NCBI RefSeq assembly: GCF_036785885.1
Contig: NC_092330.1
Span: forward strand, 19,750,525-19,814,524
DNA: 64,000 bases
Origin: Coffea arabica
Lineage: Eukaryota; Streptophyta; Magnoliopsida; Gentianales; Rubiaceae
Direction of reading: 5' to 3'
Below, piece after piece: positions 7,413 to 64,000 of the stretch; within the stretch, counting starts at the first letter, position 1, and each line of letters starts with the position of its first letter. The translations under genes and the position numbers were made by a program. The notes beneath the pieces are model-generated. The model was given only the letters and a program-made list of their open reading frames with translations, made no database searches and was not told where the DNA came from.

Positions 7413-9212
7413 TTGAGGGAGGACAGGCCTGACCAGGTCCTCCGCATCGGTGCGCTGCTACTTTCTGAGGAGAAGGAGAGGTTGAAGGCCTTTCTAAGGA
7501 AGTATTCCCAGGTATTCGCATGGACAGTTGAAGACATGCCCGGGGTTCCGACCGACTTGGCTGTCCATCACCTCAACATAGATCCCCGCTTCAAGCCAGT
7601 AAAGCAGAAGAAGAGAAGCTTCGCCCCGGAGCGGAACGAGGTGATCAAGAAGGAGATCGGCAAGCTGCTGGAATCCAAGATCATCATGGAAGTACACTAC
7701 CCGACCTGGTTAGCTAATCCCGTCCTGGTGAAAAAGGAGGACCAATCCTGGAGGATGTGCGTGGACTTTACAGACCTCAATAAGGCCTGCTCTAAGGACT
7801 GCTTCCCCTTGCCCAGGATCGACAGGTTAGTAGACTCTACTGTGGGTTTTGACTTTTTGTGTTTCCTGGATGCCTTCAAGGGATACCACCAGATAGAAAT
7901 GGCTGAGGAGGACCGGGAAAAGACCTCCTTCATCACTGAGGAAGGGACTTATTGCTACCGGACAATGCCATTTGGGCTAAAGAACGCTGGAGCTACCTAT
8001 CAGCGTTTGGTCAACAAGTTGTTTCAGAAGCAGATCGGCAGGAGCATGGAGGTCTACGTGGACGACATGATCGTCAAGAGTCGAACAGACCGGCAGCTCG
8101 CTCCCAACCTGAGGAAAATCTTGAACATTCTGTGGGAAAATCGGATGCGGCTGAACCCGAAAAAGTGTACCTTCGGGGTTAGGTTGGAAAAATTCCTGGG
8201 CTTCTTAGTCTCTTGGGAGGGGATCCGGGCCAACCCGGATAAACTCCAGGCCATCATGGACATGACCCCTTCGAGGAGCGTCAAGGAGGTCCAGCGGCTC
8301 ACGGGAAGGATGGCCGCCTTGAATAGGTTCCTCTCGCGCTCCGCGGTAAGGGGGCTACCATTCTTTCGAATTCTGAAAGCACCCAAGGACTTTCAGTGGA
8401 CCGAGAAATGCCAGAAAGTCTTCACCGATCTAAAGGCATACCTGGCTGAGCTGCCTGCTCTGACCCCCCCAAAGCGGGGAGAAACCCTGTTCCTATACTT
8501 GTCTGCCTGTAACGAGATCATTAGCGCGGTTCTGGTGCGGGAGGACAAGGGGGCTCAGAGGCCAATATACTACGTTAGCCGTGCCCTACAAGGGCCGGAA
8601 ACGCGGTACACGCCGGCAGAAAAATTGGTCCTGGCCTTGGTGCACGCCGCTCGGAAGCTCCGACCTTACTTCCAGACCCACAGCATTGTTATCATGACGG
8701 ATCAACCCTTGCGTCAGATACTTACAAAGCCTGAGGTCTCGGGCAGAATGACCAAGTGGGCTGTCGAGCTGGTCGAGTACGACATTGGCTATCGGCCTCG
8801 CACTGCTATCAAGGCTCAGGCCTTGGCAGACTTCCTTGCTGAGGGGGCTAGCTTGACCCTGACCGAGTCGAGCTCTTTGCCCACGGACATACAGCCGGAA
8901 GAGTCATGGGTGCTGTTCGTAGACGGAGCCTCGAGTAAGGAAGGAAGCGGAGCCGGCCTGCTACTCACCTCGCCCACCGGGGAAGAGCTGACCTACACGC
9001 TCAGATTCGATTTTCTGGCATCCAATAATGAGGCTAAGTACGAGACCCTATTGACAGGATTGCGGATAGCCCACCAGATGGGTATAACCGCGATCAAAGT
9101 CCGGAGCGACTCTCAAATTTGTAGTCCAACAAGTTCGCGGAGAGTACGAGGCCAAGGACGAGGTCATGAAGAAATACCTGGCTAAGGTACGAGAGGCAAT
9201 AACCCTGTTCGG
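7413..9212 (+). mobile_element. Tat element: reverse transcriptase, RNase H and second RNase H (fossil)
   Basis: A long stretch encodes gypsy reverse transcriptase, with the catalytic YVDD motif at about 8054-8065. A retroviral-type RNase H follows (FLYLSACNEIISAVL about 8490; YTPAEKLVLALV about 8610). An additional RNase H domain starts near 8910 (WVLFVDGASSKEGSGAGLLL). The second domain, resembling archaeal/host-type RNase H, is characteristic of Tat-lineage elements. The region is then interrupted by the nested insertion at 9217. Confidence 0.88.
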
Positions 9213-47629: not shown

Positions 47630-48830
47630 ATGGAAGGTACACGGAGTGGACGGGGCCGTGGGCGTGCAAATAGGCAACCTACACCTGAAAGGGGTACTGG
47701 GGAAACCTCATCTGGACCAAACCCTGAACTTAGGATTGACCCCAATGTCCAAATAGCTGCTGCCATGCAGCAAATGACTGTTTTGCTAGCCCAAGTGGTG
47801 CACCAACAAGGTCAAAACCCTAACCCTAACCCTGGGAATCCTGGTAATCACATGGAGGGCGAGGATAGAGCCCTTGAGAGATTTCAGAAGTTCTCCCCAC
47901 CCAAATTTCTTGGAGGCCCTGATCCTGACGTAGCTGAGAAGTGGCTGGAGAAGATGATCGATATTTTCGCTGCCTTACATTATACCGAGGAGAGACAGGT
48001 GACATTTGCTGTCTTTCAACTAGAGGGAGCCGCCCGTTCCTGGTGGAATGTCATTCGAATGAAATGGGAAAGAGAACAAACCCCGAGGACGTGGGCGAAC
48101 TTTATGAGAGAATTTAATGCCAAGTTTTTCCCTCCTCTCATCCAAGAAAAGAAGGAAGATGAATTCATTCGGTTTCGCCAGGGAACACAAACCGTAGCCG
48201 AGTATGAGAGTCAATTCACTCGGTTGTCTAAGTTTGCGCCTGAACTGATCATAACCGAACAAAGACGGATAAGGCGTTTTATTCAGGGGCTAAATGTTGA
48301 GATTCAAAAGGATTTGGCTGTAGCTCAACTTAGTACCGTTAGTGACGCTGTGGAGAAAGCTCAACGGGTTGAAGATGCGAGGTTACAAGTTAGAAACTTC
48401 CAAACCAAGAAAAGGGGCTTTCCTGGGAGCAGCTCGGAACAGGAAGATAAGAGCACACCCCCTAAGAGTGGAAAAGGAAATGGGGGAGTACGACAACCGG
48501 GGGTGGCTAGTGGTGTCTCATCGGGAGGATCGGTCACTGCTACTTGAGGTCCCTGTGGATATTGCGGAGGGCCAAGTCATACGGAAACAAATTGCTGGAA
48601 GAAGGAAGGAAAATGCTTGCGCTGTGGAAGCGCTGAACATCGGATTGCTAACTGTCCAGCTCGCCTGCGCGAGCGGAGAGGGACCCTACCACTGACCAAG
48701 CCCAATTCTCAGCAACCCGCCAAGAGCAACCCTGGACAGACGAAAGGAGAAGGGACGGGATCGAAGGCACAAGCTCGAGTATATTCTCTAGAGCAGCATC
48801 AGGTCCCTGACTCGTCTGAGGATGGAGAAG
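47630..48830 (+). mobile_element. Gypsy gag (Retrotrans_gag) with zinc knuckles, fossil
   Basis: The N-terminus is Arg/Gly-rich (GTRSGRGRGRANRQ). The Retrotrans_gag (PF03732) capsid fold follows, with 'FSPPKFLGGPDPDVAEKWLE' and 'GAARSWW' around 47890-48045 and 'EFNAKFFPPLIQEKKEDEFI' near 48110-48165. The zinc knuckles (CLRCGSAEHRIANC) lie at about 48615-48655. It is the structural protein of the element whose 5' LTR starts at 43957; the reading stops at the gap. Confidence 0.85.
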
Positions 48831-48832
48831 GT

Positions 48833-49332
48833 NNNNNNNNNNNNNNNNNNNNNNNNNNNNNNNNNNNNNNNNNNNNNNNNNNNNNNNNNNNNNNNNNNNN
48901 NNNNNNNNNNNNNNNNNNNNNNNNNNNNNNNNNNNNNNNNNNNNNNNNNNNNNNNNNNNNNNNNNNNNNNNNNNNNNNNNNNNNNNNNNNNNNNNNNNNN
49001 NNNNNNNNNNNNNNNNNNNNNNNNNNNNNNNNNNNNNNNNNNNNNNNNNNNNNNNNNNNNNNNNNNNNNNNNNNNNNNNNNNNNNNNNNNNNNNNNNNNN
49101 NNNNNNNNNNNNNNNNNNNNNNNNNNNNNNNNNNNNNNNNNNNNNNNNNNNNNNNNNNNNNNNNNNNNNNNNNNNNNNNNNNNNNNNNNNNNNNNNNNNN
49201 NNNNNNNNNNNNNNNNNNNNNNNNNNNNNNNNNNNNNNNNNNNNNNNNNNNNNNNNNNNNNNNNNNNNNNNNNNNNNNNNNNNNNNNNNNNNNNNNNNNN
49301 NNNNNNNNNNNNNNNNNNNNNNNNNNNNNNNN
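48833..49332. other. Assembly gap, 500 N
   Basis: Exactly 500 unknown bases, a conventional placeholder, so the true distance is unknown. It separates the gypsy element from the 5S array; both sides end mid-element. Confidence 0.95.
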
Positions 49333-49462
49333 CGGATCCGGGTGTAGACCCGACCCGTTGACCGGCCTAGGGTCACCCATCCTAGTACTACTGTCGCCCA
49401 AGCACGCTTAACTTCGAAGTTCTGATGGGATCCGGTGCATTAGTGCTGGTATGATCGCACCC
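49333..49462 (-). pseudogene. Interrupted 5S gene (left part lost in gap)
   Basis: 5S positions 1-93 lie at 49462-49370, followed by the last 37 bp of the inserted hAT element (49333-49369). It carries G70C and C46T (5S numbering). Confidence 0.9.
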
Positions 49463-49872
49463 GCCATGTTCCTTTCGCTTTATTCTTTTAAACTGCCACG
49501 TCCTGTGAAGCAGTTTGGCTTTTCTGGACCCGAATTCATTCTAAGCGTCAATTCATGAATTTCCTCACATCCTTTTATTTATTTACTTTTATATTTTTTT
49601 CTTGTTGCTTTGCACCTTTTTTTTCCCTCGTCGCACAACTCTCAATTATCCTGAAATTGATCCTTCACGCTTGCGCTTATACATTTGCGCCGACAACTTT
49701 GACCGACGATCCGGGCTTCGATCCAGCCGTACCGTTCCTGACTTGTCTCGCGCCTTCAGATCCGCCTTCATGCTTCGATGAGAAGCAAAATATAAAGCAA
49801 TCGTTCCGACGGAGCTAAATTACTACAGCATAAAGAACGAAGGGGAAATTTGGATTTCGAAACAAAAAAGGG

Positions 49873-50505
49873 AGGGGTGCAACACGAGGATTTCCCAGGG
49901 GGTCACCTAGGGGTGTCAACGGGCCAGGTCCGGGCCGGAATTCATTATTCCGGACCCGGACCCGGATCCGACCCGTTTACCCGACGGGTCTTTTATTCGG
50001 TGTTCCGGATCCGGACCCGACGAGTCTCGGTTCCGGGTCGGGTCTACCCGAACAAATTTGCCAAAATTTATAATTTCTAACAAAAAAGAGAAAAAGATAT
50101 ATTTGTAAACAAATTTCTAGCTAATGCAAAGAAAAAACCAAATAAGAAAATAAATCAAATTGATTTTACTCAAATACATCATCCTAATCAAATTATATTG
50201 ATAATATATATTTTTTATAAATTATTAAATCATTTATATCCGGATCCGGGTCTAATACGGGTCGGAATACTATATTCCGTATCCGACCCGTTTTTTTGTT
50301 TGAAAAAACGGATCCGGATCCGGATAACGGAATGAAATCCCTACCCTTACCCGCAAAAATTCCAGGGATCCGATCCGGATCCGGGTGTAGACCCGACCCG
50401 TTGACAGGCCTAGGGTCACCCATCCTAGTACTACTGTCGCCCAAGCACGCTTAACTTCGGAGTTCTGATGGGATCCGGTGCATTAGTGCTGGTATGATCG
50501 CACCC
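49873..50505 (-). pseudogene. Interrupted 5S gene, unit 2
   Basis: Positions 1-93 lie at 50505-50413 and the rest at 49907-49873. The 8-bp GGTGACCC (minus strand) is present on both sides of the insert. It has G70C and G102A but the normal C46. Confidence 0.95.
49908..50412. mobile_element. hAT MITE in 5S (505 bp), reference copy
   Basis: The left end TAGGGGTGTCAACGGGCC and the complement of the right end, TAGGCCTGTCAACGGG, form imperfect inverted repeats. The target duplication is 8 bp (gggtcacc, 49900-49907 and 50413-50420), which with the TAGGGGTGTCAA terminus indicates hAT. The subterminal regions are packed with 'ccggatccgg' and 'gggtcgggt' motifs, the core is AT-rich, and there is no transposase. 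Within the element, 57 bp past the 5S segment on the minus strand, is TTTTT (50359-50355), a possible Pol III stop. Right-end type A ('gacaggccta'). Confidence 0.88.
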
Positions 50506-50915
50506 GCCATGTTCCTTTCGCTTTATTCTTTTAAACTGCCACGTCCTGTGAAGCAGTTTGGCTTTTCTGGACCCGAATTCATTCTAAGCGTCAATTCATG
50601 AATTTCCTCACATCCTTTTATTTATTTACTTTTATATTTTTTTCTTGTTGCTTTGCACCTTTTTTTTCCCTCGTCGCACAACTCTCAATTATCCTGAAAT
50701 TGATCCTTCACGCTTGCGCTTATACATTTGCGCCGACAACTTTGACCGACGATCCGGGCTTCGATCCAGCCGTACCGTTCCTGACTTGTCTCGCGCCTTC
50801 AGATCCGCCTTCATGCTTCGATGAGAAGCAAAATATAAAGCAATCGTTCCGACGGAGCTAAATTACTACAGCATAAAGAACGAAGGGAAAATTTTGATTT
50901 CGAAACAAAAAAGGG

Positions 50916-51535
50916 AGGGGTGCAACACGAGGATTTCCCAGGGGGTCACCTAGGGGTGTCAACGGGCCGGGTCTGGGCCGGAATTCATTATTCCGGACCC
51001 GGACCCGGATCCGACGGGTCTTTTATTCGGTGTTTCGGATCCGGACCCGGCGAGTCTCGGATCCGGGTTGTGGTCTACCCGAACAAATTTGCCAAAATTT
51101 ATAATTTCTAACAAAAAAGAGAAAAAGATATATTTGTAAACAAATTTCTAGCTAATGCAAAGAAAAAACCAAATAAGAAAATAAATCAAATTGATTTTAC
51201 TCAAATACATCATCCTAATCAAATTATATTGATAATATATATTTTTTATAAATTATTAAATCATTTATATCCGGATCCGGGTCTAATACGGGTCGGAATA
51301 CTATATTCCGTATCCGACCCGTTTTTTTGTTTGAAAAAACGGATCGGATCCGGATAACGGAATTAAATCCCTACCCATACCCGCAAAAATTCCAGGGATC
51401 CGATCCGGATCCGGGTGTAGACCCGACCCGTTGACCGGCCTAGGGTCACCCATCCTAGTACTACTGTCGCCCAAGCACGCTTAACTTCGAAGTTCTGATG
51501 GGATCCGGTGCATTAGTGCTGGTATGATCGCACCC
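50916..51535 (-). pseudogene. Interrupted 5S gene, unit 3
   Basis: Positions 1-93 lie at 51535-51443 and the 3' part at 50950-50916. It has G70C, C46T and G102A. Confidence 0.95.
50951..51442. mobile_element. hAT MITE in 5S (492 bp)
   Basis: Same insertion and duplication as the reference copy, but with a 13-bp deletion near the left subterminal 'gacccgtttaccc'. Right-end type B ('gaccggccta'). Confidence 0.92.
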
Positions 51536-51945
51536 GCCATGTTCCTTTCGCTTTATTCTTTTAAACTGCCACGTCCTGTGAAGCAGTTTGGCTTTTCTGG
51601 ACCCGAATTCATTCTAAGCGTCAATTCATGAATTTCCTCACATCCTTTTATTTATTTACTTTTATATTTTTTTCTTGTTGCTTTGCACCTTTTTTTTCCC
51701 TCGTCGCACAACTCTCAATTATCCTGAAATTGATCCTTCACGCTTGCGCTTATACATTTGCGCCGACAACTTTGACCGACGATCCGGGCTTCGATCCAGC
51801 CGTACCGTTCCTGACTTGTCTCGCGCTTTCAGATCCGCCTTCATGCTTCGATGAGAAGCAAAATATAAAGCAATCGTTCCGACGGAGCTAAATTACTACA
51901 GCATAAAGAACGAAGGGGAAATTTGGATTTCGAAACAAAAAAGGG

Positions 51946-52578
51946 AGGGGTGCAACACGAGGATTTCCCAGGGGGTCACCTAGGGGTGTCAACGGGCCGG
52001 GTCCGGGCCGGAATTCATTATTCCGGACCCGGACCCGGATCCGACCCGTTTACCCGACGGGTCTTTTATTCGGTGTTTCGGATCCAGACCCGCCGAGTCT
52101 CGGATCCGGGTCGGGTCTACCCGAACAAATTTCCCAAAATTTATAATTTCTAACAAAAAAGAGAAAAAGATATATTTGTAAACAAATTTCTAGCTAATGC
52201 AAAGAAAAAACCAAATAAGAAAATAAATCAAATTGATTTTACTCAAATACATCATCCTAATCAAATTATATTGATAATATATATTTTTTATAAATTATTA
52301 AATCATTTATATCCGGATCCGGGTCTAATACGGGTCGGAATACTATATTCCGTATCCGACCCGTTTTTTTGTTTGAAAAAACGGATCCGGATCCGGATAA
52401 CGGAATTAAATCCCTACCCATACCCGCAAAAATTTCAGGGATCCGATCCGGATCCGGGTGTAGACCCGACCCGTTGACCGGCCTAGGGTCACCCATCCTA
52501 GTACTACTGTCGCCCAAGCACGCTTAACTTCGAAGTTCTGATGGGATCCGGTGCATTAGTGCTGGTATGATCGCACCC
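51946..52578 (-). pseudogene. Interrupted 5S gene, unit 4
   Basis: Positions 1-93 lie at 52578-52486 and the 3' part at 51980-51946. It has G70C, C46T and G102A. Its upstream spacer (52579-52989) is a mosaic of the two spacer types. Confidence 0.95.
51981..52485. mobile_element. hAT MITE in 5S (505 bp)
   Basis: Type B right end, same 8-bp duplication. It carries private changes (gatccagacccgccgag), shared only with the copy at 59289. Confidence 0.92.
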
Positions 52579-52989
52579 GCCATGTTCCTTTCGCTTTATT
52601 CTTTTAAACTGTCACGTCCTGTGAAGCAGTTTGGCTTTTCTGGACCCGAATTCATTCTAAGCGTCAATTCATGAATTTCCTCTCATCCTCTTATTTATTT
52701 ACTTTTACATTTTTTTCTTGTTGATTTGCACCATTTTTTTTCCCTCGTCGCGCAACTCTCAATTATCCTGAAATTGATCCTTCACGCTTGCGCTTATACA
52801 TTTGCGCCGAAAACTTTGACCGACGATCCGGGCTTCGATCCAGCCGTACCGTTCCTGACTTGTCTCGCGCCTTCAGATCCGCCTTCATGCTTCGATGAGA
52901 AGCAAAATATAAAGCAATCGTTCCGACGGAGCTAAATGACTACAGCATAAAGAACGAAGGGGAAATTTGAATTTCGAAACAAAAAAGGG

Positions 52990-53109
52990 AGGGGTGCAAC
53001 ACGAGGACTTCCCAGGGGGTCACCCATCCTAGTACTACTCTCGCCCAAGCACGCTTAACTTCGGAGTTCTGATGGGATCCGGTGCATTAGTGCTGGTATG
53101 ATCGCACCC
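52990..53109 (-). rRNA. 5S rRNA gene, uninterrupted (unit 5)
   Basis: 120 bp, RNA 5' end at 53109 (GGGTGCGATCATACC) and 3' end at 52990 (…GTTGCACCCCT). The A box (50-64), intermediate element (67-72) and C box (80-97) match the plant consensus. A T-run terminator follows at about 52986-52981. The base at -2 differs from the other whole genes (cgacatg against cgccatg on the plus strand). Confidence 0.97.
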
Positions 53110-53521
53110 GACATGTTTCTTTCGCTTTATTCTTTTAAACTGCCCCGTCCTGTGAAGCAGTGTGGCTTTTCTGGACCCGAATTCATTTTAAGCGTCAATT
53201 CAAGAATTTCTCCTCATCCTTTTATTTATTTACTTTTACATTTTTTTCTTGTTGATTTGCACCATTTTTTTTTCCCTCGTCGCGCAACTCTCAATTATCC
53301 TGAAATTGATCTTTCACGCTTGCGCTTATACATTTGCGCCGACAACTTTGACCGACGATCCGGGCTTCGATCCAGCGGTACCGTTCCTGACTTGTCTCGC
53401 GCCTTCAGATCCGCCTTCATGCTTCGATGAGAAGCAAAATATAAAGCAATCGTTCCGACGGAGCTAAATTACTACAGCATAAAGAACGAAGGGGAAATTT
53501 GGATTTCGAAACAAAAAAGGG

Positions 53522-54153
53522 AGGGGTGCAACACGAGGATTTCCCAGGGGGTCACCTAGGGGTGTCAACGGGCCGGGTCCGGGCCGGAATTCATTATTCC
53601 GGACCCGGACCCGGATCCGACCCGTTTACCCGACGGGTCTTTTATTCGGTGTTTCGGATCCGGACCCGGCGAGTCTCGGATCCGGGTCGGGTCTACCCGA
53701 ACAAATTTCCCAAAATTTACAATTTCTAACAAAAAAGAGAAAAAGATATATTTGTAATCAAATTTCTAGCTAATGCAAAGAAAAAACCAAATAAGAAAAT
53801 AAATCAAATTGATTTTACTCAAATACATCATCCTAATCAAATTATATTGATAATATATATTTTTTATAAATTATTAAATCATTTATATCCGGATCCGGGT
53901 CTAATACGGGTCGGAATACTATATTCCGTATCCGACCCGTTTTTTTGTTTGAAAAAACGGATCGGATCCGGATAACGGAATTAAATCCCTACCCATACCC
54001 GCAAAAATTCCAGGGATCCGATCCGGATCCGGGTGTAGACCCGACCCGTTGACCGGCCTAGGGTCACCCATCCTAGTACTACTGTCGCCCAAGCACGCTT
54101 AACTTCGAAGTTCTGATGGGATCCGGTGCATTAGTGCTGGTATGATCGCACCC
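53522..54153 (-). pseudogene. Interrupted 5S gene, unit 6
   Basis: Positions 1-93 lie at 54153-54061 and the 3' part at 53556-53522. It has G70C, C46T and G102A. Confidence 0.95.
53557..54060. mobile_element. hAT MITE in 5S (504 bp)
   Basis: Type B right end; one base shorter than the reference at 'acggatcggatccgg'. Same duplication. Confidence 0.92.
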
Positions 54154-54563
54154 GCCATGTTCCTTTCGCTTTATTCTTTTAAACTGCCACGTCCTGTGAA
54201 GCAGTTTGGCTTTTCTGGACCCGAATTCATTCTAAGCGTCAATTCATGAATTTCCTCACATTCTTTTATTTATTTACTTTTATATTTTTTTCTTGTTGCT
54301 TTGCACCTTTTTTTTCCCTCGTCGCACAACTCTCAATTATCCTGAAATTGATCCTTCACGCTTGCGCTTATACATTTGCGCCGACAACTTTGACCGACGA
54401 TCCGGGCTTCGATCCAGCCGTACCGTTCCTGACTTGTCTCGCGCCTTCAGATCCGCCTTCATGCTTCGATGAGAAGCAAAATATAAAGCAATCGTTCCGA
54501 CGGAGCTAAATTACTACAGCATAAAGAACGAAGGGGAAATTTGGATTTCGAAACAAAAAAGGG

Positions 54564-55196
54564 AGGGGTGCAACACGAGGATTTCCCAGGGGGTCACCTA
54601 GGGGTGTCAACGGGCCAGGTCCGGGCCGGAATTCATTATTCCGGACCCGGACCCGGATCCGACCCGTTTACCCGACGGGTCTTTTATTCGGTGTTCCGGA
54701 TCCGGACCCGACGAGTCTCGGTTCCGGGTCGGGTCTACCCGAACAAATTTGCCAAAATTTATAATTTCTAACAAAAAAGAGAAAAAGATATATTTGTAAA
54801 CAAATTTCTAGCTAATGCAAAGAAAAAACCAAATAAGAAAATAAATCAAATTGATTTTACTCAAATACATCATCCTAATCAAATTATATTGATAATATAT
54901 ATTTTTTATAAATTATTAAATCATTTATATCCGGATCCGGGTCTAATACGGGTCGGAATACTATATTCCGTATCCGACCCGTTTTTTTGTTTGAAAAAAC
55001 GGATCCGGATCCGGATAACGGAATTAAATCCCTACCCATACCCGCAAAAATTTCAGGGATCCGATCCGGATCCGGGTCTAGACCCGACCCGTTGACAGGC
55101 CTAGGGTCACCCATCCTAGTACTACTGTCGCCCAAGCACGCTTAACTTCGGAGTTCTGATGGGATCCGGTGCATTAGTGCTGGTATGATCGCACCC
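54564..55196 (-). pseudogene. Interrupted 5S gene, unit 7
   Basis: Positions 1-93 lie at 55196-55104 and the 3' part at 54598-54564. It has G70C and G102A, with the normal C46. Confidence 0.95.
54599..55103. mobile_element. hAT MITE in 5S (505 bp)
   Basis: Type A right end with 'gggtctagacccg' in place of 'gggtgtagacccg', a marker shared with the copies at 60865 and 62440. Confidence 0.92.
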
Positions 55197-55606
55197 GCCA
55201 TGTTCCTTTCGCTTTATTCTTTTAAACTGCCACGTCCTGTGAAGCAGTTTGGCTTTTCTGGACCCGAATTCATTCTAAGCGTCAATTCATGAATTTCCTC
55301 TCATCCTTTTATTTATTTACTTTTATATTTTTTTCTTGTTGCTTTGCACCTTTTTTTTCACTCGTCGCACAACTCTCAATTATCCTGAAATTGATCCTTC
55401 ACGCTTGCGCTTATACATTTGCGCCGACAACTTTGACCGACGATCCGGGCTTCGATCCAGCCGTACCGTTCCTGACTTGTCTCGCGCCTTCAGATCCGCC
55501 TTCATGCTTCGATGAGAAGCAAAATATAAAGCAATCGTTCCGACGGAGCTAAATTACTACAGCATAAAGAACGAAGGGGAAATTTGGATTTCGAAACAAA
55601 AAAGGG

Positions 55607-55726
55607 AGGGGTGCAACACGAGAACTTCCCAAGGGGTCACCCATCCTAGTACTACTCTCGCCCAAGCATGCTTAACTTCGGAGTTCTGATGGGATCCGGT
55701 GCATTAGTGCTGGTATGATCGCACCC
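55607..55726 (-). rRNA. 5S rRNA gene, uninterrupted variant (unit 8)
   Basis: 120 bp with three changes from the consensus: G58A inside box A, C95T in box C and C104T. Whether it is transcribed well is uncertain. It is shared exactly with 61873-61992. Confidence 0.93.
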
Positions 55727-56138
55727 GCCATGTTCCTTTCGCTTTATTCTTTTAAACTGCCCCGTCCTGTGAAGCAGTGTGGCTTTTCTGGACCCGAATT
55801 CATTTTAAGCGTCAATTCAAGAATTTCCCTTCATCCTTTTATTTATTTACTTTTACATTTTTTTCTTGTTGATTTGCACCATTTTTTTTTCCCTCGTCGC
55901 GCAACTCTCAATTATCCTGAAATTGATCCTTCACGCTTGCGCTTATACATTTGCGCCGACAACTTTGACCGACGATCCGGGCTTCGATCCAGCCGTACCG
56001 TTCCTGACTTGTCTCGCGCCTTCAGATCCGCCTTCATGCTTCGATGAGAAGCAAAATATAAAGCAATCGTTCCGACGGAGCTAAATTACTACAGCATAAA
56101 GAACGAAGGGGAAATTTGGATTTCGAAACAAAAAAGGG

Positions 56139-56770
56139 AGGGGTGCAACACGAGGATTTCCCAGGGGGTCACCTAGGGGTGTCAACGGGCCGGGTCCGGG
56201 CCGGAATTCATTATTCCGGACCCGGACCCGGATCCGACCCGTTTACCCGACGGGTCTTTTATTCGGTGTTTCGGATCCGGACCCGGCGAGTCTCGGATCC
56301 GGGTCGGGTCTACCCGAACAAATTTCCCAAAATTTACAATTTCTAACAAAAAAGAGAAAAAGATATATTTGTAATCAAATTTCTAGCTAATGCAAAGAAA
56401 AAACCAAATAAGAAAATAAATCAAATTGATTTTACTCAAATACATCATCCTAATCAAATTATATTGATAATATATATTTTTTATAAATTATTAAATCATT
56501 TATATCCGGATCCGGGTCTAATACGGGTCGGAATACTATATTCCGTATCCGACCCGTTTTTTTGTTTGAAAAAACGGATCGGATCCGGATAACGGAATTA
56601 AATCCCTACCCATACCCGCAAAAATTCCAGGGATCCGATCCGGATCCGGGTGTAGACCCGACCCGTTGACCGGCCTAGGGTCACCCATCCTAGTACTACT
56701 GTCGCCCAAGCACGCTTAACTTCGAAGTTCTGATGGGATCCGGTGCATTAGTGCTGGTATGATCGCACCC
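56139..56770 (-). pseudogene. Interrupted 5S gene, unit 9
   Basis: Positions 1-93 lie at 56770-56678 and the 3' part at 56173-56139. It has G70C, C46T and G102A. Confidence 0.95.
56174..56677. mobile_element. hAT MITE in 5S (504 bp)
   Basis: Type B right end, one-base-shorter form like 53557. Its right end is the counterpart, 7,308 bp away, of the element fragment next to the gap. Confidence 0.92.
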
Positions 56771-57180
56771 GCCATGTTCCTTTCGCTTTATTCTTTTAAA
56801 CTGCCACGTCCTGTGAAGCAGTTTGGCTTTTCTGGACCCGAATTCATTCTAAGCGTCAATTCATGAATTTCCTCACATCCTTTTATTTATTTACTTTTAT
56901 ATTTTTTTCTTGTTGCTTTGCACCTTTTTTTTCCCTCGTCGCACAACTCTCAATTATCCTGAAATTGATCCTTCACGCTTGCGCTTATACATTTGCGCCG
57001 ACAACTTTGACCGACGATCCGGGCTTCGATCCAGCCGTACCGTTCCTGACTTGTCTCGCGCCTTCAGATCCGCCTTCATGCTTCGATGAGAAGCAAAATA
57101 TAAAGCAATCGTTCCGACGGAGCTAAATTACTACAGCATAAAGAACGAAGGGGAAATTTGGATTTCGAAACAAAAAAGGG

Positions 57181-57813
57181 AGGGGTGCAACACGAGGATT
57201 TCCCAGGGGGTCACCTAGGGGTGTCAACGGGCCAGGTCCGGGCCGGAATTCATTATTCCGGACCCGGACCCGGATCCGACCCGTTTACCCGACGGGTCTT
57301 TTATTCGGTGTTCCGGATCCGGACCCGACGAGTCTCGGTTCCGGGTCGGGTCTACCCGAACAAATTTGCCAAAATTTATAATTTCTAACAAAAAAGAGAA
57401 AAAGATATATTTGTAAACAAATTTCTAGCTAATGCAAAGAAAAAACCAAATAAGAAAATAAATCAAATTGATTTTACTCAAATACATCATCCTAATCAAA
57501 TTATATTGATAATATATATTTTTTATAAATTATTAAATCATTTATATCCGGATCCGGGTCTAATACGGGTCGGAATACTATATTCCGTATCCGACCCGTT
57601 TTTTTGTTTGAAAAAACGGATCCGGATCCGGATAACGGAATGAAATCCCTACCCTTACCCGCAAAAATTTTAGGGATCCGATCCGGATCCGGGTGTAGAC
57701 CCGACCCGTTGACAGGCCTAGGGTCACCCATCCTAGTACTACTGTCGCCCAAGCACGCTTAACTTCGGAGTTCTGATGGGATCCGGTGCATTAGTGCTGG
57801 TATGATCGCACCC
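57181..57813 (-). pseudogene. Interrupted 5S gene, unit 10
   Basis: Positions 1-93 lie at 57813-57721 and the 3' part at 57215-57181. It is the higher-order repeat partner of unit 2. Confidence 0.95.
57216..57720. mobile_element. hAT MITE in 5S (505 bp)
   Basis: Type A right end; differs from the copy at 49908 by two bases near 57670 ('aaaaattttaggg'). Confidence 0.92.
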
Positions 57814-58223
57814 GCCATGTTCCTTTCGCTTTATTCTTTTAAACTGCCACGTCCTGTGAAGCAGTTTGGCTTTTCTGGACCCGAATTCATTCTAAGCGTC
57901 AATTCATGAATTTCCTCACATCCTTTTATTTATTTACTTTTATATTTTTTTCTTGTTGCTTTGCACCTTTTTTTTCCCTCGTCGCACAACTCTCAATTAT
58001 CCTGAAATTGATCCTTCACGCTTGCGCTTATACATTTGCGCCGACAACTTTGACCGACGATCCGGGCTTCGATCCAGCCGTACCGTTCCTGACTTGTCTC
58101 GCGCCTTCAGATCCGCCTTCATGCTTCGATGAGAAGCAAAATATAAAGCAATCGTTCCGACGGAGCTAAATTACTACAGCATAAAGAACGAAGGGAAAAT
58201 TTTGATTTCGAAACAAAAAAGGG

Positions 58224-58843
58224 AGGGGTGCAACACGAGGATTTCCCAGGGGGTCACCTAGGGGTGTCAACGGGCCGGGTCTGGGCCGGAATTCATTATT
58301 CCGGACCCGGACCCGGATCCGACGGGTCTTTTATTCGGTGTTTCGGATCCGGACCCGGCGAGTCTCGGATCCGGGTTGTGGTCTACCCGAACAAATTTGC
58401 CAAAATTTATAATTTCTAACAAAAAAGAGAAAAAGATATATTTGTAAACAAATTTCTAGCTAATGCAAAGAAAAAACCAAATAAGAAAATAAATCAAATT
58501 GATTTTACTCAAATACATCATCCTAATCAAATTATATTGATAATATATATTTTTTATAAATTATTAAATCATTTATATCCGGATCCGGGTCTAATACGGG
58601 TCGGAATACTATATTCCGTATCCGACCCGTTTTTTTGTTTGAAAAAACGGATCGGATCCGGATAACGGAATTAAATCCCTACCCATACCCGCAAAAATTC
58701 CAGGGATCCGATCCGGATCCGGGTGTAGACCCGACCCGTTGACCGGCCTAGGGTCACCCATCCTAGTACTACTGTCGCCCAAGCACGCTTAACTTCGAAG
58801 TTCTGATGGGATCCGGTGCATTAGTGCTGGTATGATCGCACCC
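58224..58843 (-). pseudogene. Interrupted 5S gene, unit 11
   Basis: Positions 1-93 lie at 58843-58751 and the 3' part at 58258-58224. Partner of unit 3. Confidence 0.95.
58259..58750. mobile_element. hAT MITE in 5S (492 bp)
   Basis: Carries the same 13-bp deletion as the copy at 50951, 7,308 bp away. Confidence 0.92.
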
Positions 58844-59253
58844 GCCATGTTCCTTTCGCTTTATTCTTTTAAACTGCCACGTCCTGTGAAGCAGTTTGGC
58901 TTTTCTGGACCCGAATTCATTCTAAGCGTCAATTCATGAATTTCCTCACATCCTTTTATTTATTTACTTTTATATTTTTTTCTTGTTGCTTTGCACCTTT
59001 TTTTTCCCTCGTCGCACAACTCTCAATTATCCTGAAATTGATCCTTCACGCTTGCGCTTATACATTTGCGCCGACAACTTTGACCGACGATCCGGGCTTC
59101 GATCCAGCCGTACCGTTCCTGACTTGTCTCGCGCTTTCAGATCCGCCTTCATGCTTCGATGAGAAGCAAAATATAAATCAATCGTTCCGACGGAGCTAAA
59201 TTACTACAGCATAAAGAACGAAGGGGAAATTTGGATTTCGAAACAAAAAAGGG

Positions 59254-59886
59254 AGGGGTGCAACACGAGGATTTCCCAGGGGGTCACCTAGGGGTGTCAA
59301 CGGGCCGGGTCCGGGCCGGAATTCATTATTCCGGACCCGGACCCGGATCCGACCCGTTTACCCGACGGGTCTTTTATTCGGTGTTTCGGATCCAGACCCG
59401 CCGAGTCTCGGATCCGGGTCGGGTCTACCCGAACAAATTTCCCAAAATTTATAATTTCTAACAAAAAAGAGAAAAAGATATATTTGTAAACAAATTTCTA
59501 GCTAATGCAAAGAAAAAACCAAATAAGAAAATAAATCAAATTGATTTTACTCAAATACATCATCCTAATCAAATTATATTGATAATATATATTTTTTATA
59601 AATTATTAAATCATTTATATCCGGATCCGGGTCTAATACGGGTCGGAATACTATATTCCGTATCCGACCCGTTTTTTTGTTTGAAAAAACGGATCCGGAT
59701 CCGGATAACGGAATTAAATCCCTACCCATACCCGCAAAAATTTCAGGGATCCGATCCGGATCCGGGTGTAGACCCGACCCGTTGACCGGCCTAGGGTCAC
59801 CCATCCTAGTACTACTGTCGCCCAAGCACGCTTAACTTCGAAGTTCTGATGGGATCCGGTGCATTAGTGCTGGTATGATCGCACCC
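59254..59886 (-). pseudogene. Interrupted 5S gene, unit 12
   Basis: Positions 1-93 lie at 59886-59794 and the 3' part at 59288-59254. Partner of unit 4, with the same mosaic spacer upstream (59887-60297). Confidence 0.95.
59289..59793. mobile_element. hAT MITE in 5S (505 bp)
   Basis: Type B right end with the private changes shared with 51981. Confidence 0.92.
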
Positions 59887-60297
59887 GCCATGTTCCTTTC
59901 GCTTTATTCTTTTAAACTGTCACGTCCTGTGAAGCAGTTTGGCTTTTCTGGACCCGAATTCATTCTAAGCGTCAATTCATGAATTTCCTCTCATCCTCTT
60001 ATTTATTTACTTTTACATTTTTTTCTTGTTGATTTGCACCATTTTTTTTCCCTCGTCGCGCAACTCTCAATTATCCTGAAATTGATCCTTCACGCTTGCG
60101 CTTATACATTTGCGCCGAAAACTTTGACCGACGATCCGGGCTTCGATCCAGCCGTACCGTTCCTGACTTGTCTCGCGCCTTCAGATCCGCCTTCATGCTT
60201 CGATGAGAAGCAAAATATAAAGCAATCGTTCCGACGGAGCTAAATGACTACAGCATAAAGAACGAAGGGGAAATTTGAATTTCGAAACAAAAAAGGG

Positions 60298-60417
60298 AGG
60301 GGTGCAACACGAGGACTTCCCAGGGGGTCACCCATCCTAGTACTACTCTCGCCCAAGCACGCTTAACTTCGGAGTTCTGATGGGATCCGGTGCATTAGTG
60401 CTGGTATGATCGCACCC
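60298..60417 (-). rRNA. 5S rRNA gene, uninterrupted (unit 13)
   Basis: 120 bp, consensus sequence, with the same -2 variant as 52990-53109, 7,308 bp away. T-run terminator just to the left. Confidence 0.97.
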
Positions 60418-60829
60418 GACATGTTTCTTTCGCTTTATTCTTTTAAACTGCCCCGTCCTGTGAAGCAGTGTGGCTTTTCTGGACCCGAATTCATTTTAAG
60501 CGTCAATTCAAGAATTTCTCCTCATCCTTTTATTTATTTACTTTTACATTTTTTTCTTGTTGATTTGCACCATTTTTTTTTCCCTCGTCGCGCAACTCTC
60601 AATTATCCTGAAATTGATCCTTCACGCTTGCGCTTATACATTTGCGCCGACAACTTTGACCGACGATCCGGGCTTCGATCCAGCGGTACCGTTCCTGACT
60701 TGTCTCGCGCCTTCAGATCCGCCTTCATGCTTCGATGAGAAGCAAAATATAAAGCAATCGTTCCGACGGAGCTAAATTACTACAGCATAAAGAACGAAGG
60801 GGAAATTTGGATTTCGAAACAAAAAAGGG

Positions 60830-61462
60830 AGGGGTGCAACACGAGGATTTCCCAGGGGGTCACCTAGGGGTGTCAACGGGCCGGGTCCGGGCCGGAATTC
60901 ATTATTCCGGACCCGGACCCGGATCCGACCCGTTTACCCGACGGGTCTTTTATTCGGTGTTCCGGATCCGGACCCGGCGAGTCTCGGATCCGGGTCGGGT
61001 CTACCCGAACAAATTTGCCAAAATTTATAATTTCTAACAAAAAAGAGAAAAAGATATATTTGTAAACAAATTTCTAGCTAATGCAAAGAAAAAACCAAAT
61101 AAGAAAATAAATCAAATTGATTTTACTCAAATACATCATCCTAATCAAATTATATTGATAATATATATTTTTTATAAATTATTAAATCATTTATATCCGG
61201 ATCCGGGTCTAATACGGGTCGGAATACTATATTCCGTATCCGACCCGTTTTTTTGTTTGAAAAAACGGATCCGGATCCGGATAACGGAATTAAATCCCTA
61301 CCCATACCCGCAAAAATTTCAGGGATCCGATCCGGATCCGGGTCTAGACCCGACCCGTTGACAGGCCTAGGGTCACCCATCCTAGTACTACTGTCGCCCA
61401 AGCACGCTTAACTTCGGAGTTCTGATGGGATCCGGTGCATTAGTGCTGGTATGATCGCACCC
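60830..61462 (-). pseudogene. Interrupted 5S gene, unit 14 (recombinant)
   Basis: Positions 1-93 lie at 61462-61370 and the 3' part at 60864-60830. The 3' side matches unit 6, while the 5' side has normal C46 like unit 7, as expected of a unit-6/unit-7 crossover. Confidence 0.93.
60865..61369. mobile_element. hAT MITE in 5S (505 bp), recombinant
   Basis: The left margin lines up with the copy at 53557 and the right end carries the 'gggtctagacccg' and 'gacaggccta' markers of the copy at 54599. One 1,042-bp unit is missing relative to the first higher-order block. Confidence 0.9.
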
Positions 61463-61872
61463 GCCATGTTCCTTTCGCTTTATTCTTTTAAACTGCCACG
61501 TCCTGTGAAGCAGTTTGGCTTTTCTGGACCCGAATTCATTCTAAGCGTCAATTCATGAATTTCCTCTCATCCTTTTATTTATTTACTTTTATATTTTTTT
61601 CTTGTTGCTTTGCACCTTTTTTTTCACTCGTCGCACAACTCTCAATTATCCTGAAATTGATCCTTCACGCTTGCGCTTATACATTTGCGCCGACAACTTT
61701 GACCGACGATCCGGGCTTCGATCCAGCCGTACCGTTCCTGACTTGTCTCGCGCCTTCAGATCCGCCTTCATGCTTCGATAAGAAGCAAAATATAAAGCAA
61801 TCGTCCCGACGGAGCTAAATTACTACAGCATAAAGAACGAAGGGGAAATTTGGATTTCGAAACAAAAAAGGG

Positions 61873-61992
61873 AGGGGTGCAACACGAGAACTTCCCAAGG
61901 GGTCACCCATCCTAGTACTACTCTCGCCCAAGCATGCTTAACTTCGGAGTTCTGATGGGATCCGGTGCATTAGTGCTGGTATGATCGCACCC
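61873..61992 (-). rRNA. 5S rRNA gene, uninterrupted variant (unit 15)
   Basis: 120 bp with G58A, C95T and C104T, the same as 55607-55726. Confidence 0.93.
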
Positions 61993-62404
61993 GCCATGTT
62001 CCTTTCGCTTTATTCTTTTAAACTGCCCCGTCCTGTGAAGCAGTGTGGCTTTTCTGGACCCGAATTCATTTTAAGCGTCAATTCAAGAATTTCCCTTCAT
62101 CCTTTTATTTATTTACTTTTACATTTTTTTCTTGTTGATTTGCACCATTTTTTTTTCCCTCGTCGCGCAACTCTCAATTATCCTGAAATTGATCCTTCAC
62201 GCTTGCGCTTATACATTTGCGCCGACAACTTTGACCGACGATCCGGGCTTCGATCCAGCCGTACCGTTCCTGACTTGTCTCGCGCCTTCAGATCCGCCTT
62301 CATGCTTCGATGAGAAGCAAAATATAAAGCAATCGTTCCGACGGAGCTAAATTACTACAGCATAAAGAACGAAGGGGAAATTTGGATTTCGAAACAAAAA
62401 AGGG

Positions 62405-63036
62405 AGGGGTGCAACACGAGGATTTCCCAGGGGGTCACCTAGGGGTGTCAACGGGCCGGGTCCGGGCCGGAATTCATTATTCCGGACCCGGACCCGGATC
62501 CGACCCGTTTACCCGACGGTCTTTTATTCTGTGTTCCGGATCCGGACCCGGCGAGTCTCGGATCCGGGTCGGGTCTACCCGAACAAATTTGCCAAAATTT
62601 ATAATTTCTAACAAAAAAGAGAAAAAGATATATTTGTAAACAAATTTCTAGCTAATGCAAAGAAAAAACCAAATAAGAAAATAAATCAAATTGATTTTAC
62701 TCAAATACATCATCCTAATCAAATTATATTGATAATATATATTTTTTATAAATTATTAAATCATTTATATCCGGATCCGGGTCTAATACGGGTCGGAATA
62801 CTATATTCCGTATCCGACCCGTTTTTTTGTTTGAAAAAACGGATCCGGATACGGATAACGGAATTAAATCCCTACCCATACCCGCAAAAATTTCAGGGAT
62901 CCGATCCGGATCCGGGTCTAGACCCGACCCGTTGACAGGCCTAGGGTCACCCATCCTAGTACTACTGTCGCCCAAGCACGCTTAACTTCGGAGTTCTGAT
63001 GGGATCCGGTGCATTAGTGCTGGTATGATCGCACCC
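62405..63036 (-). pseudogene. Interrupted 5S gene, unit 16
   Basis: Positions 1-93 lie at 63036-62944 and the 3' part at 62439-62405. It has G70C and G102A, with normal C46. Confidence 0.95.
62440..62943. mobile_element. hAT MITE in 5S (504 bp)
   Basis: Type A right end with the 'ctagaccc' marker; one base lost in 'cccgacggtc'. Same 8-bp duplication. Confidence 0.92.
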
Positions 63037-63446
63037 GCCATGTTCCTTTCGCTTTATTCTTTTAAACTGCCACGTCCTGTGAAGCAGTTTGGCTTTTCTG
63101 GACCCGAATTCATTCTAAGCGTCAATTCATGAATTTCCTCTCATCCTTTTATTTATTTACTTTTATATTTTTTTCTTGTTGCTTTGCACCTTTTTTTTCA
63201 CTCGTCGCACAACTCTCAATTATCCTGAAATTGATCCTTCACGCTTGCGCTTATACATTTGCGCCGACAACTTTGACCGACGATCCGGGCTTCGATCCAG
63301 CCGTACCGTTCCTGACTTGTCTCGCGCCTTCAGATCCGCCTTCATGCTTCGATGAGAAGCAAAATATAAAGCAATCGTTCCGACGGAGCTAAATTACTAC
63401 AGCATAAAGAACGAAGGGGAAATTTGGATTTCGAAACAAAAAAGGG

Positions 63447-63566
63447 AGGGGTGCAACACGAGGACTTCCCAGGGGGTCACCCATCCTAGTACTACTCTCG
63501 CCCAAGCACGCTTAACTTCGGAGTTCTGATGGGATCCGGTGCATTAGTGCTGGTATGATCGCACCC
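63447..63566 (-). rRNA. 5S rRNA gene, uninterrupted (unit 17)
   Basis: 120 bp, consensus throughout, T-run terminator to the left. With 52990 and 60298 it is one of three copies here with no change in the RNA. Confidence 0.97.
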
Positions 63567-63978
63567 GCCATGTTCCTTTCGCTTTATTCTTTTAAACTGC
63601 CCCGTCCTGTGAAGCAGTGTGGCTTTTCTGGACCCGAATTCATTTTAAGCGTCAATTCAAGAATTTCCCCTCATCCTTTTATTTATTTACTTTTACATTT
63701 TTTTCTTGTTGATTTGCACCATTTTTTTTTCCCTCGTCGCGCAACTCTCAATTATCCTGAAATTGATCCTTCACGCTTGCGCTTATACATTTGCGCCGAC
63801 AACTTTGACCGACGATCCGGGCTTCGATCCAGCCGTACCGTTCCTGACTTGTCTCGCGCCTTCAGATCCGCCTTCATGCTTCGATGAGAAGCAAAATATA
63901 AAGCAATCGTTACGACGGAGCTAAATTACTACAGCATAAAGAACGAAGGGGAAATTTGGATTTCGAAACAAAAAAGGG

Positions 63979-64000
63979 AGGGGTGCAACACGAGGATTTC
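63979..64000 (-). pseudogene. 5S gene 3' end cut by the window, probably an interrupted copy
   Basis: Only the last 22 bases of the RNA-coding strand are visible. They carry G102A, found in every interrupted copy and in no whole copy here, so a hAT insert is predicted just beyond the edge. Confidence 0.75.

Follow-up and report, generated by a model that had tools for sequence, protein, structure and literature searches.

The window analysed here is a stretch of 64,000 nucleotides from Coffea arabica, and its last part (49333-64000) is a 5S rDNA array on the minus strand. The array contains 17 5S genes, 12 of which are broken by an inserted element and five of which are whole, and the broken and whole units alternate along it with intergenic spacers of 410-412 bp. 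A gap of 500 N (48833-49332) precedes the array and falls inside an element. At the other side the array runs to the end of the window, which cuts off an 18th 5S gene. The visible array, cut at both ends, amounts to 14.7 kb, and its unit order is taken from one assembly.

When the junctions between gene and element were searched, 11 left junctions, 12 right junctions and five uninterrupted genes were located, so that each of the 17 Rfam 5S matches corresponds to one of 12 broken or five whole genes. An earlier note on this DNA had given the same numbers, and both its counts and its coordinates were right. The one additional broken copy that it had predicted remains a prediction, drawn from a single G102A-type base among the 22 bases that end the window. 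The statements that the majority of the genes are broken and that they have not been purged are valid for these 14.7 kb only.

All 17 genes passed the gathering score of the RF00001 covariance model, the whole genes with 112.4-115.2 bits and the broken genes with 72.7-76.3 bits. As the 12 broken genes are all among them, an automatic annotation might report 17 genes although five are whole. In one alignment (52461-52578) the model was seen to fill the missing 3' part of the gene with element sequence. Three of the five whole genes are identical, and the other two (units 8 and 15) have G58A, C95T and C104T in common. These two units are identical to each other, and their genes possibly represent a second 5S variant or a degenerate class.

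Other features were observed in the window outside the array. An open frame at 889-1563 encodes uS5/RPS2, with the best scores against PDB 7qix and 8auv, which we take to be plant ribosomes. It matches 223 residues of relatives of about 280 residues and may be a first exon. Downstream of this frame lies a 334-bp tandem duplication (1667-2330; two copies, 96% matches). Two retrotransposon open frames were also found, one for reverse transcriptase/RNase H (7413-9185) and one for a Ty3-type gag (47630-48547), the latter close to the gap beside the 5S array.

The insertion site is the same throughout, after 5S nt 93, and the target duplication is the 8 bp of nt 86-93. The sequence GGGTCACC (plus strand) is present at every element junction and on both sides of all 11 complete elements. 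The complete elements measure 492, 504 or 505 bp. The earlier note had described 11 full elements and one partial one, near-identical and all at one site with one duplication. This description was borne out at 12/12 right and 11/11 left junctions, the twelfth element being the one cut by the gap, and near-identity holds, though eight distinct sequences occur among the 11 complete elements. In the one copy that was studied, the ends form an imperfect inverted repeat with 25-bp arms that are 84% complementary (two flanking bases per side included), the GC content is 42%, and the element is non-coding, the longest stop-free stretch in six frames being 84 codons. The ends read TAGGG (TAGGGGTG) and TAGGC. 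The consensus for hAT ends is YARNG, which only TAGGG fits. Judged by the 8-bp duplication and the TAGGG end, the element is a candidate hAT-like non-autonomous MITE, the TAGGC end fitting less well. No match to any of the 11 elements was found at an E-value of 1e-3 in the 48.8 kb of sequence outside the array, which are too little for judging dispersal. When entire units were compared with the same 48.8 kb, the best of the matches listed (all from a broken unit) was one of 28 bp in the spacer, with an E-value of 2.9e-4.

Table 1 Features of the 5S array, in positions of the window
Feature	Position	Strand	Remarks
Element right end, cut on the gap side	49333-49369		Junction search
Element, 505 bp, unit 2	49908-50412		Junction search
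Element, 492 bp, unit 3	50951-51442		Junction search; 13-bp deletion
Element, 505 bp, unit 4	51981-52485		Junction search
Element, 504 bp, unit 6	53557-54060		Junction search
Element, 505 bp, unit 7	54599-55103		Junction search
Element, 504 bp, unit 9	56174-56677		Junction search
Element, 505 bp, unit 10	57216-57720		Junction search
Element, 492 bp, unit 11	58259-58750		Junction search; 13-bp deletion as in unit 3
Element, 505 bp, unit 12	59289-59793		Junction search
Element, 505 bp, unit 14	60865-61369		Junction search
Element, 504 bp, unit 16	62440-62943		Junction search
8-bp target duplication, unit 2	49900-49907 (left), 50413-50420 (right)		Layout alike in the other 10 complete elements
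Whole 5S gene, unit 5	52990-53109	-	Rfam match; identical to the genes of units 13 and 17
Whole 5S gene, unit 8	55607-55726	-	Rfam match; G58A, C95T, C104T
Whole 5S gene, unit 13	60298-60417	-	Rfam match; identical to the genes of units 5 and 17
Whole 5S gene, unit 15	61873-61992	-	Rfam match; G58A, C95T, C104T
Whole 5S gene, unit 17	63447-63566	-	Rfam match; reference for substitutions
Repeated block	49333-53653		Units 1-4 (broken), unit 5 (whole), start of unit 6
Hybrid spacer, unit 4	52579-52989		Identical copy at 59887-60297
Predicted chimeric Pol III transcript, unit 2	50355-50505	-	93 nt of 5S plus element to T5; putative transcription

When gene substitutions were scored against the whole gene of unit 17 (63447), two alleles were found to be private to the broken genes. 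G70C is present in 12/12 broken genes and G102A in 11/11 (the cut copy does not include that part), and both are present in 0/5 whole genes. Independent insertions into differing gene backgrounds, as expected of a transposon of the Dada-5S type, were not seen within the window. A perfect 12/5 split has a chance of 1.6e-4, or of 1e-3 once identical units are collapsed to 10/4. A third substitution, C46T, occurs in 7/12 broken genes and agrees with the right-end base of the element in all 12.

The identical site in all copies would also fit a site-specific transposon that inserts repeatedly at one 5S position, and such elements exist, as described for the fish elements Dada-5S (PMC8869645) and Mutsu (PMC3706591). 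However, the duplications reported for Dada in the part of PMC8869645 that was available are 6 or 7 bp long, against 8 bp here, and G70C and G102A are common to the broken genes and absent from the whole ones. The diversity per site of the element (1.38%) is, moreover, near that of the adjoining broken-type spacer (1.20%, or 0.68% without the two hybrid spacers described below). In view of the private alleles that the broken genes share, we regard repeated targeted insertion as highly improbable. An element that is about as diverse as the adjoining DNA, or up to twice as diverse, would suit functionless cargo.

The congruence between element and spacer was less clear. The distances between elements and those between their own spacers correlated weakly in a Mantel test (r 0.18 with p 0.083 across 11 units, and r 0.32 with p 0.036 across the nine left when the hybrids are dropped), and element distance did not correlate with left-spacer distance (r 0.00, p 0.43). 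Recombination among units would explain the weak correlation, and some independent origins, as expected from repeated targeted insertion, would explain it too. In the four-gamete test on the 11 broken units that remain when the cut unit is left out, 21 of 946 informative site pairs failed; 44 columns entered this test, 13 of which represent one deletion. We read these failures as within-unit exchange, and the congruence result as a whole is not clean. Once the hybrids are dropped, the broken-type spacer (0.68%) is also about half as diverse as the element, which counts against a single insertion. No use was made of unit distances across the two classes, since the alignment behind them mixes element with gene.

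The spacers carry the same division as the genes. The type of the 5'-side spacer matches the gene state in 15 of the 17 units, and the mean pairwise difference is 4.9 among the 12 broken-type spacers, 3.8 among the five whole-type spacers and 12.4 between the two types. The exceptions are the hybrids in units 4 and 12, where the spacer is of the broken type near the gene and mostly of the whole type thereafter (4/5 later diagnostic columns). Ten spacer columns separate the broken and whole lineages without these two hybrids, and six do so with them. The hybrid spacer testifies to exchange between the broken and whole lineages, and it was duplicated along with its block. The broken and whole lineages have thus recombined in the spacer, and the array is a mosaic and not two separate loci. 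A division of broken and whole units into two loci was rejected for 49333-64000 in view of their alternation, the recombinant spacer and a duplicated block that holds both kinds of unit.

This block (49333-53653) recurs 7308 bp downstream with four mismatches in 4321 bp. From 53654 on, within the elements of units 6 and 14, the two copies diverge; 13 site differences and one gap separate this pair of units. Besides units 8 and 15, which are both whole, units 4 and 12, both broken, form an identical pair. Units 3 and 11, which are counterparts at the offset of 7308 bp, are alone in having the 13-bp deletion in the element. At least one copying step therefore took a multi-unit block with broken and whole genes. 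As whole genes were copied in the same block, independent events cannot be counted from the ratio of 12:5, and fewer than 17 of them lie behind it.

Since 5S arrays pose difficulties for assembly, the pattern of repeats could in part be a product of the assembly, with the block at the 7308-bp offset as a false duplication. The array contig does begin at a 500-N gap within an element, and the identity of units 4 and 12 and of units 8 and 15 would be expected from such an error. However, the block copies differ at four sites before they diverge, and the eight distinct element sequences at the broken junctions make the broken class independent of the block. We consider an assembly product quite unlikely.

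A single insertion, after which the broken unit was passively copied within the array and at least once in a mixed block, is in our judgement a very probable explanation. A hAT-like non-autonomous transposon of about 505 bp would have entered one 5S gene once, after nt 93. The broken unit would then have been multiplied passively through unequal crossing over, together with some conversion between array units, and at least one of the copying steps would have carried a block of several units including whole genes. The outcome would be the mosaic array in which broken and whole units alternate, and an excess of 5S genes may have allowed it to be tolerated. The earlier note had likewise argued from the shared site and the private 5S substitutions to one insertion followed by unequal crossover or conversion. 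Its argument gains support from G70C, G102A and the linked spacer alleles, and its proposed sequence of events from the shared site and duplication, the private alleles and the duplicated block of about 4.3 kb. Its further claim that the broken lineage is being homogenised stands in part, as homogenisation is incomplete: the 11 complete elements comprise eight haplotypes, and the lineages are still separated at the spacer sites counted above.

The locus can be regarded as a natural marker experiment, in which one lesion in a gene of a tandem family is traceable through unequal exchange. In the visible stretch the lesion has reached most of the units and has not been removed.

The consequence for the 5S gene depends on which control elements are considered. 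In Xenopus these lie at 50-61, 67-72 and 80-90, and in Drosophila an element at 78-98 is given (both as described in PMC3215682). Placed after nt 93, the insertion is 3' to box C (80-90) and leaves the Xenopus elements in place, and G70C falls within the IE (67-72). An element of the Drosophila type would be split. A control-element map for a plant 5S gene was not found in the literature searched. As we read the Rfam alignment, nt 70 and nt 105 form a pair in the whole gene. The first stretch of four or more T that follows the broken gene within the element is a T5 at nt 147-151 in 11/11 complete cases. If Pol III starts on the broken genes, a chimera of about 150 nt without the 3' part of 5S is possible. 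The predicted fold of this RNA was no better than that of shuffled sequences (z -0.89; 31/200 as good), and the control with the whole 5S was also weak (z -1.35; 17/200), so that this comparison carries little weight.

From the bases retained, the broken units might still act as Pol III genes, with box A, the IE (one change) and box C kept, a normal start and a stop at the T5. We think this unlikely. If true, it would mean an amplified family of 5S-transposon RNAs of about 150 nt, acting as competitors for TFIIIA or as a feed into small-RNA silencing and in this way letting the broken lineage persist within the array. That the broken units have been kept for such a function, through the chimeric RNA or through TFIIIA binding, would be consistent with the three retained elements, with an insertion site 3' of box C on the Xenopus map and with the constant T5. 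The Drosophila map, the change within the IE and the predicted fold speak against it, and we hold a retained function to be very unlikely.

Several known systems resemble parts of what was observed here. The 5S pseudogenes of Gnetum and Ephedra lie among the functional genes and are about as numerous as these or more numerous, and in Ephedra they are apparently homogenised with the functional genes, according to the portions of PMC6526317 that were available. However, the word 'transposon' is absent from the main text of that paper, and its authors regard the long-range order in Gnetum as uncertain, whereas here 14.7 kb of one assembly show the order directly. In the case of the short-type 5S region of wheat 5BS (PMC5688495), transposons interrupt a diverged 5S array as well. 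One LTR element (Fatima) lies in a 5S coding sequence and all the other cases are in spacers, and copying of a broken unit is not reported in the available part of the source. Transposable elements within 5S arrays are also described for maize Mo17, where they are mostly Copia (PMC10335936), and for Ensete glaucum, with an LTR-element example (PMC9055855); in the accessible text of these two sources no co-amplified broken 5S gene was found.

A transposon-broken 5S gene that was copied through its array was likewise found neither in the available parts of PMC12222929 (Hydnora 5S arrays), PMC6204057 and PMC3123226 nor among the other titles and abstract openings listed from the open-access literature. 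The fish elements Dada-5S and Mutsu also occupy a specific site of the 5S gene, but they are described as cases of targeted insertion (PMC8869645, PMC3706591), whereas here the host alleles are linked to the lesion and the copying looks passive. 5S pseudogenes that have been amplified are thus known, and so are transposons within 5S arrays. Their combination, in which one transposon-broken 5S gene has been copied to most of the visible stretch with whole genes alongside, was not found in the portions of the literature available to us.
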